From contig JAIPBX010000011.1 of assembly GCA_021738485.1 (NCBI GenBank), forward strand, positions 1-48,991: DNA of 48,991 nt, in the 5' to 3' direction. The position numbers and the translations under genes were made by a program. Positions 30,843 through 48,991 of the stretch are shown one piece after another; position 1 is the first letter of the stretch; the number at the start of each line of letters is the position of its first letter. The notes under the pieces were generated by a model. It was not told where the DNA came from. It saw nothing but the letters and a program-made list of their open reading frames with translations, and did no database searches. The stretch comes from Bacteroidales bacterium. Lineage in GTDB: Bacteria; Bacteroidota; Bacteroidia; Bacteroidales; JAIPAH01.

Positions 30843-30920
30843 TGGTGGGTGATGTTAGATTCGAACTAACGACCCCCTGCTTGTAAGGCAGGTGCTCTGA
30901 ACCAACTGAGCTAATCACCC
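30843..30920 (-). tRNA. tRNA-Val (anticodon UAC)
   Basis: A complete cloverleaf on the minus strand: acceptor GGGTGAT / ATCACCC, D-arm AGCTCAGTTGGTTCAGAGC, anticodon stem CCTGC / GCAGG with loop CTTACAA giving UAC (34-36), and T-arm GTTAG TTCGAAT CTAAC. The genomic sequence ends in CCA, so the 3' end is encoded. Length is 75 nt plus CCA. A rearranged partial copy lies immediately upstream in the direction of transcription. Confidence 0.96.
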
Positions 30921-30940
30921 AATTTTTTTTGTAATATAAA

Positions 30941-31047
30941 GAACTAACGACCCCCTGCTTGTAAGGCAGGCGCTCTGAACCAATCCCGAAAATTTCATTT
31001 TCGAGGACCCACGATTTGAAATCAAATCGGGGCTGAGCTAATCACCC
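30941..31047 (-). pseudogene. Degenerate tRNA-Val copy interrupted by a hairpin element
   Basis: Starting 20 bp beyond the intact tRNA, the sequence repeats its 5' end, anticodon arm (with the same UAC loop; one change in 39 bp of that part) and part of the T-arm, stopping at GTTAGTTC, where it runs into the flank. The 3' acceptor strand is missing. A 49-bp insert splits it in the D-arm between AGCTCAG and TTGGT. It cannot form a working tRNA as it stands. The flank after it (31033-31071) repeats 30906-30944 at about 35 of 39 positions. Confidence 0.85.
30984..31032 (-). repeat. 49-bp double-hairpin element (copy 1) in the tRNA-Val pseudocopy
   Basis: Reading the minus strand, it begins CCCCGATTTG and ends TTTTCGGGA. 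It folds as two adjacent hairpins: CGATTTG / CAAATCG and CGAAAAT / ATTTTCG (the latter extended by CC/GG pairs). The same element, with the stems kept and the loops changed, is inserted at the same D-arm position next to tRNA-Gly at 48744-48793. Confidence 0.85.
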
Positions 31048-31264
31048 AAAATTTCTTGCAATATAAAGAACAAAAATGATTTAAGCTATTTGACCTTCCC
31101 TTGCGATGCGTTGATGTCTGTAACAACCGCGTTCATCAACCCTTTTGCCAAATGCGGTTGCAAATATAGATCATTTTTTTTTCTAAACAAGAAGGATGAT
31201 GAAAAAATTTGACTGCCTGCGAAACCCCAATAAATCTTATTTTTGCAACAAATAGCAGATAGTA

Positions 31265-48565: not shown

Positions 48566-48594
48566 TAAAAAAACGCCCGAATTTCTCCGGGCGT
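48566..48594 (-). terminator. Terminator of tRNA-Gly
   Basis: Minus-strand hairpin ACGCCCGG / CGGGCGT with a run of T residues, 5 bp after the tRNA 3' end. Confidence 0.85.
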
Positions 48595-48598
48595 CCTG

Positions 48599-48671
48599 AG
48601 CGAAAGACGGGACTCGAACCCGCGACCCTAACCTTGGCAAGGTTATGCTCTACCAACTGAGCTACTTTCGC
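48599..48671 (-). tRNA. tRNA-Gly (anticodon GCC)
   Basis: A 73-nt cloverleaf on the minus strand: acceptor GCGAAAG / CTTTCGC with discriminator T, D-arm AGCTCAGTTGGTAGAGC, anticodon stem TAACC / GGTTA with loop TTGCCAA giving GCC, and T-arm GCGGG TTCGAGT CCCGT. CCA is not encoded, unlike in the tRNA-Val of this window. A degenerate copy of its 5' half lies upstream. Confidence 0.95.
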
Positions 48672-48723
48672 TTATGTTTCTGTTTTTTTCTCTCTTCTCT
48701 TCTTCCGCGTCCCTATCCGCCTC
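48657..48723. repeat. 67-bp direct repeat, copy A (tRNA-Gly 5' end plus flank)
   Basis: It begins CTGAGCTACTTTCGC and ends TATCCGCCTC. It is repeated at 48794-48860 with two differences in 67 positions. The copies flank the degenerate tRNA and the double-hairpin element. Confidence 0.9.
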
Positions 48724-48731
48724 AGGCGGAT

Positions 48732-48808
48732 ATGCTCAACCAATCCCGAAAATTCTATTTTCGAGGACCCTCGATTTGAAGCTCAAATCGGGGCTGAGCT
48801 ACTTTCGC
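48732..48808 (-). pseudogene. Degenerate 5' part of tRNA-Gly interrupted by a hairpin element
   Basis: On the minus strand it has GCGAAAGTAGCTCAG, the 50-bp insert, then TTGGTTGAGCATA, after which the tRNA likeness ends in the palindrome TATCCGCCTGAGGCGGATA. The anticodon, T-arm and 3' acceptor strand are absent. The insertion point (after AGCTCAG, before TTGGT) is the same as in the tRNA-Val pseudocopy. Confidence 0.82.
48744..48793 (-). repeat. 50-bp double-hairpin element (copy 2) in the tRNA-Gly pseudocopy
   Basis: Same element as at 30984-31032. Differences fall mainly in the two loops and the joining base, while the stems CGATTTG / CAAATCG and CGAAAAT / ATTTTCG are kept. Confidence 0.85.
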
Positions 48809-48860
48809 TTATGTTTCTGTTTTTTTCTTTCTTCCCTTCTTCCGCGTCCCTATCCGCCTC
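48794..48860. repeat. 67-bp direct repeat, copy B
   Basis: Second copy of the tRNA-Gly 5' end plus flank, 65 of 67 positions equal to copy A. The remaining 48861-48991 holds no gene or site that could be supported. Confidence 0.9.
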
Positions 48861-48991
48861 GTATGTTTGCACCCAACAATGAAGGACCCTGTTTTTTTAT
48901 TATTGTTGTAGGATAATAACAAGCAGGGAGAAGACAGGATAAACATGCTCCGCCAGATGCATTTATTGATGACATCGTGCCTGAGATAAGT

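Follow-up and report, generated by a model that had tools for sequence, protein, structure and literature searches.

Near one end of the 48,991-nucleotide Bacteroidales stretch (the window), an intact tRNA-Gly gene (GCC) lies on the minus strand at 48598-48671, as called by ARAGORN and by Rfam (RF00005, 72 bits), and is followed immediately on its 3' side by a terminator-like hairpin with a T-run (48570-48597, minus strand). Just upstream of it, as upstream of an intact tRNA-Val elsewhere in the window, stands a partial tandem copy of that tRNA, leader included. Read along the minus strand, the partial tRNA-Gly consists of a 5' part, GCGAAAGTAGCTCAG (48794-48808), a double-hairpin insert at G15^T16 that we call element E (48744-48793), a D-arm remnant, TTGGTTGAGCATA (48731-48743), and a palindrome, TCCGCCTGAGGCGGA (48716-48730), which replaces the anticodon arm. 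In 423 kb of the genome, the window among them, palindrome sites of this last type number only two. An outer direct repeat (48794-48860, minus strand), made of leader and tRNA 5' part, is matched by an inner one (48657-48723, minus strand), made of leader and the first 15 nt of the intact gene; the preliminary description had put this repeat at 67 bp with 65 matches, and the alignment agrees, with 67 nt, 97% identity and two mismatches. The Gly junction has CATA as a short shared word. From this locus it is 131 bp to the contig end, and window positions 48850-48990 recur as the end of another contig, C47 (L046 1024-1164; 141 bp, 99.3%), which beyond the common part leads instead to the 3' part of a tRNA and to a GIY-YIG ORF. 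The overlap would be either an assembly fork or a strain variant, and because it is common to the C47 end the outer Gly flank was treated as a fork.

The second locus is built around an intact tRNA-Val (TAC) at 30843-30920, again called by ARAGORN and Rfam and, like its neighbouring features, on the minus strand. Its partial copy begins with GGGTGATTAGCTCAG (31033-31047), is interrupted by E (30984-31032) and continues 3' of E (30941-30983) as far as the T-loop GTTC, where it is joined to the leader GTTCTT, so that GTTC is common to T-loop and leader. The outer direct repeat (31033-31074) has its partner at 30906-30947 (88%). This locus is independently present in a second species, the congener G001 (L067), with an orthologous E in which stems are kept and loops changed. 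An assembly or binning artefact might be suspected from the position of the Gly copy near a contig end with 141 bp shared, and from contig C106 of the MAG (L023), 1842 bp of which recur with 100% identity in contig C125 (L224) of G040, a MAG of a different family, for which reason C106 is probably cross-binned. Such an origin is nevertheless hardly credible, as the Val locus and E both recur, with diverged sequence, in independent assemblies.

In both partial copies E is an insert of 49-50 bp that splits the D-loop (CAG^TTGG), with AGCTCAG directly before it and TTGGT directly after it on the minus strand, so the earlier proposal of the same element at the same D-loop spot beside separate tRNAs holds for Gly and Val. 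E is composed of two abutting hairpins with one bulged base each (CCCCG..CG-N-GGG / TCC-N-CG..CGGGA). The two window copies, 17.76 kb apart, are 91% alike across 46 matched nt; their stems are identical, and the differences lie in the hairpin loops and one bulged base. Similarity extends beyond the D-arm. Chance had also been discounted in the preliminary description, rightly, since a search with hairpin 2 alone, allowing three mismatches, returned 2 matches against 0.01 expected from shuffles, and across the whole genome a structure-only pattern matched tRNA loci alone.

The two copies folded well both as DNA (z = -5.4 and -4.2) and as RNA (z = -3.8 and -3.2). In the two hairpins, left and right arms of the same copy are complementary at 5.7 and 5.4 positions out of 6, compared with 2.5 and 2.4 when arms are swapped between copies (16 and 22 distinct arms). 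When the stem arms of 28 distinct copies were aligned, 97.5% of the cells were paired, against 76% after shuffling and at most 64% after sliding, the base pairs fixed by the search pattern being uninformative for covariation. All ten variable stem pairs change on both sides and by Watson-Crick substitutions only, without a single one-sided (G-U type) change among the 280 variable cells. Selection on an RNA should leave G-U intermediates, and their absence argues for DNA rather than RNA structure. The earlier suggestion that stems are kept while loops differ is therefore substantiated, and of the selection on RNA or DNA structure that it invoked, the DNA half is favoured over the RNA half. These results point to E being a DNA palindrome, maintained by selection or by palindrome-templated repair. 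Two adjacent hairpins with variable stems also make up the short double-hairpin elements of Allomyces mitochondria, which are found in genes and spacers and are not known to be restricted to tRNAs; the likeness is one of form only, E being nearly always at a tRNA.

A structure-only pattern, which fixes just the hairpin feet and centre and has no tRNA context, found six distinct copies of E in this MAG of 3.1 Mb, none of them more than 160 bp from an intact tRNA: one at Val, one at Gly, three at the tRNA-Gly of contig C37 (two of them in T-loops) and one at the tRNA-Asn of C141. The reversed pattern, run as a control on the whole genome, gave no match. E as an ordinary interspersed repeat was rejected, as 423 kb of background contained none except the two tRNA copies; its preference for tRNAs is clear. 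Beyond this genome, wide pattern scans returned mostly chance matches in G+C-rich genomes, and copies were therefore retained only if their inner stems paired. E is rare, being present in three of the 393 Bacteroidales genomes sampled, namely this one, the congener G001 and G040, which belongs to another family, the remaining matches being attributable to chance; in a phylum-wide sample of 395 genomes, the only match outside this genome was a chance one. In species genomes, the matches listed include Saprospiraceae, Flavobacteriales, Sphingobacteriales, Phaeodactylibacter and other Bacteroidota MAGs, and, among Patescibacteria, Zambryskibacteria, Paceibacterota, Yanofskybacteria and Sungiibacteriota, with the same 20-base framework in these distant phyla. 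A phage origin of E was rejected, since none of 80 pattern matches in viral contigs had paired stems.

In D-loops, E occurs in 5' partial tRNAs upstream of the intact gene and follows position 15, 18 or 19 (in L098 it is placed earlier); in T-loops it occurs in 3' partial tRNAs downstream of the gene, always at G53^T54. The D-arm position given in the preliminary description is right for Gly and Val, but it is one target among several, hairpins being found at G53^T54 of the T-loop and in the anticodon arm too. E follows the strand of the tRNA, the orientation being reversed at the 5' ends of CPR tRNA-Glu genes. Three or four copies lie away from tRNAs (L069 and, in CPR, L088, L171 and L166). 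The one in L069 (1501-1587; G040:C157) is the one case of in-frame insertion into an ORF, its 87 bp amounting to 29 codons on the opposite strand of an Rhs-core ORF, in which E stands in for part of the usual Rhs core motif. Palindromic elements of Rickettsia insert into RNA genes and, in frame, into ORFs, to which the L069 copy may be compared; E differs from them in sequence and hosts and sits almost only in partial tRNAs.

Other arrays vary the theme. In L064 (G040:C147), a tRNA-Leu array, one full-length tRNA-Leu carries E in its D-loop, accompanied by degenerate E-like hairpins. In L036 (contig C141 of this MAG, G000), the tRNA-Asn has two 5' partial copies upstream and, downstream, four 124-bp 3' partial copies with terminator, followed by a GIY-YIG ORF. 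At L237 (G001:C139), orthologous to the Gly locus, the intact tRNA-Gly has been lost and a D-loop and a T-loop E are fused around another palindrome, from which we conclude that such loci recombine. A search for an empty site found none, and G001 yielded no Gly-locus ortholog of that kind.

In another reading, the partial tRNA with its hairpin would function as an RNA, serving as transcribed leader or decoy in the regulation of the downstream tRNA. Comparable would be the rtT repeats downstream of E. coli tyrT, tandem repeats that contain part of the tRNA 3' end; they resemble the present loci in combining tandem repeats with partial tRNA, and differ in that they are not known to have a hairpin-split tRNA loop or a nuclease gene. 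Partial copy and intact tRNA do share one strand and probably one transcript, E folds well as RNA, and two species have retained the Val locus. Against this stand the strictly two-sided stem changes described above and the absence from Rfam 15, searched up to an E-value of 5, of any family overlapping E, rtT RNA included. Moreover, the occurrence of 5' and 3' partials, of differing hairpins and of an insertion in a coding sequence suggests no single regulatory role, and L237 keeps its fused E copies with no intact gene to regulate. We therefore judge a regulatory RNA improbable. The transcribed or processed pseudo-tRNA envisaged in the preliminary description is better seen as part of a locus type organised around small GIY-YIG genes.

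Translation of E-bearing loci revealed small free-standing GIY-YIG ORFs adjoining E, in Bacteroidota as in Patescibacteria. PF01541 was confirmed for four of the E-linked ORFs, whose nearest solved structures are UPF0213 proteins. Distances from ORF to E are 0-32 bp in L099, L115, L139, L165 and L183, 102 bp in L078 and 748 bp in the tRNA-Asn array of this genome. In L115, L183 and L078 an intact tRNA-Ala comes first, then the GIY-YIG ORF and then a T-arm partial copy interrupted by E; L099 reads E, GIY-YIG, E, tRNA-Glu, and L139 and L165 read GIY-YIG, E, tRNA-Glu. Every free-standing GIY-YIG ORF of this genome is next to a tRNA gene or a partial tRNA, the contigs being C26 (Arg), C47, C141 (Asn) and the probably cross-binned C106 (Arg). 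At C26 an intact tRNA-Arg is followed by an ORF whose end enters a second tRNA-Arg 3' part, with a hairpin inside the T-loop. ORFs placed between intact tRNA and hairpin-broken copy, the main clue to these loci, had been missed in the preliminary description.

The association was quantified on the best-scoring GIY-YIG loci, which are not a random draw: in E-bearing genomes, an intact tRNA lies within 250 bp of 13 of 24 small GIY-YIG ORFs and of none of 6 long ones, and two further small ORFs touch partial tRNA copies; in other Bacteroidales the figures are 5/13 and 0/15; pooled, they are 18/37 and 0/21 (long ORFs such as UvrC; Fisher p = 6e-5). About half of the small ORFs are away from any tRNA. 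All 13 E-bearing genomes possess a small GIY-YIG ORF, as do 16 of 38 other Bacteroidales (p = 2e-4). No GIY-YIG ORF was found in the window or in the DNA around its Val and Gly loci, and most E-bearing loci, among them Val and Gly of the window and those of G001 and G040, had no nuclease in the DNA examined. At nuclease-bearing loci an intact tRNA and a GIY-YIG ORF are followed by a partial tRNA whose T-, D- or anticodon loop contains a hairpin. This layout recurs with other hairpins at many loci, also in CPR and in Bacteroidales lacking E, and at most nuclease-bearing loci the hairpins are unrelated to E in sequence and occupy the same role.

Replication slippage at palindromes or tRNA inverted repeats might have produced the duplications with no mobile enzyme, leaving hairpins as by-products of template switching. 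The words common to the junctions (GTTC at Val, CATA at Gly) and the many palindromes within partial copies would fit. However, the 20-base framework of E is found in distant phyla, and local slippage therefore cannot be its source; small GIY-YIG ORFs also lie precisely between tRNA copies. We consider slippage highly improbable.

The broken-copy layout, found across Bacteroidota and candidate-phylum bacteria and often with a GIY-YIG ORF between the copies, looks like the trace of a selfish element that enters tRNA genes while sparing one working copy. Comparable anatomy is known from the invasive endonuclease elements of mitochondria (the Allomyces atp6 type), in which the host gene is restored and the ORF lies between the repaired full gene and its displaced end. 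The loci described here share that position of an endonuclease ORF and differ in that the target is a bacterial tRNA gene rather than a protein gene and in the hairpin in the displaced part. For tRNA genes the precedent is SegB, a GIY-YIG nuclease of phage T6 that cuts within them at RAWTSGAAC, the complement of the T-loop GTTCSAWTY; a tRNA segment is amplified in tandem, by way of microhomology, and this requires SegB (PMC13096335). SegB of T4 and T6 is likewise a small free-standing GIY-YIG protein encoded beside tRNA genes, T-loop cleavage and tandem tRNA amplification being properties of SegB itself (PMC13096335; PMC2988022). Unlike SegB, the present ORFs are chromosomal, occur in Bacteroidota and Patescibacteria, encode about 80-95 aa and accompany hairpin-interrupted partial tRNAs, and the window loci have no nuclease gene. 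The system would unite homing of the SegB type with the restoration of the host gene known from the fungal mitochondrial endonuclease elements.

Taking SegB together with the partial tandem copies, the junction microhomology and the loop hairpins, we infer the following scheme. At the core of the element would be a GIY-YIG endonuclease, free-standing and some 80-95 aa long, that would cut a tRNA gene within a loop-coding region; repair or recombination would restore the whole tRNA, leaving a tandem partial duplication whose displaced half remains beside its native flank; and a DNA palindrome, here E, at the cut region of that half would remove the cleavage site. The displaced half, so interrupted, would be neither cleavable nor a functional tRNA. 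The anatomy, its recurrence at many tRNAs, the DNA-type covariation, the preference for tRNAs and the position of GIY-YIG ORFs between the copies, in some cases right beside E, are observations; cutting, subsequent duplication, hairpin entry, mobility and protection of the displaced copy are inferences. On balance we favour reading the Val and Gly loci as ORF-less members, decayed or non-autonomous, of selfish elements of tRNA genes built on GIY-YIG; they may be relics, or forms mobilised in trans. Their link to the nuclease would run through the family of E and the shared anatomy of the loci. The sibling loci contain a GIY-YIG ORF, and position beside the target gene is seen for the small ORFs counted above as for E; since the window loci lack the nuclease gene, they are not themselves classed as homing elements.

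In a less likely alternative, E would be a stand-alone DNA hairpin transposon (MITE- or REPIN-like) that a Y1 (HUH) transposase acting in trans inserts into single-stranded loops; it would survive only in redundant tandem tRNA copies, and GIY-YIG genes would be at tRNA sites independently. The double hairpin with mirrored bulges, the flush ends without target duplication, the constant orientation that D- and T-loop copies have with respect to the tRNA, the DNA-type covariation and the in-frame copy outside a tRNA in L069 are all consistent with it, and Y1_Tnp is present in 11 of the 13 E-bearing genomes. Yet no Y1 transposase was seen at any E locus, and G782, with two E copies, and G784 show none, though both genomes may be incomplete. 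The alternative also leaves unexplained why the same broken-copy anatomy exists with other hairpins at nuclease loci lacking E. REP/REPIN sequences with their RAYT (Y1) transposases resemble E in having paired, bulged hairpins, whereas E is low-copy (the six copies noted above, rather than the high intergenic numbers of REP/REPIN), bound to tRNAs and without a transposase nearby or a visible GTAG/CGTC tag. Within the GIY-YIG scheme, a Y1 transposase is a possible route of hairpin entry.

Open-access literature yielded no description of palindromes in Bacteroidetes tRNA genes or of GIY-YIG genes beside bacterial tRNA genes, and in the part of the literature covered we found no account of bacterial chromosomes in which GIY-YIG genes accompany tRNA copies split by hairpins. 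We tentatively propose that there may be an undescribed class of tRNA-gene-homing GIY-YIG elements in Bacteroidota and Patescibacteria, duplicating part of the tRNA and locking the displaced half with a hairpin, of which E would be a widespread double-hairpin module that could pass from one phylum to another and outlast the nuclease. Bacteria very commonly carry small GIY-YIG (UPF0213-like) genes, most of which have no known function; if tied to tRNA genes with gene-restoring partial copies, they would be selfish homing elements of essential genes, and would allow a test of how an endonuclease can exploit a target that is both essential and constrained in sequence while its host survives. They would also supply chromosomal counterparts of phage SegB and account for a puzzling class of pseudo-tRNAs.

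Tandem forms of the layout were encountered as well. In a genome without E, L368 (G024:C20:12800-15062) comprises three tandem units of a GIY-YIG ORF and a partial tRNA-Val in which a hairpin replaces the anticodon arm. L369 (G003:C3:7600-11000) comprises tandem tRNA-Val / GIY-YIG units with extra tRNA copies whose anticodon arm is altered; ARAGORN labels one of them Phe(aaa), and extra copies of this kind may be misannotated as tRNAs.
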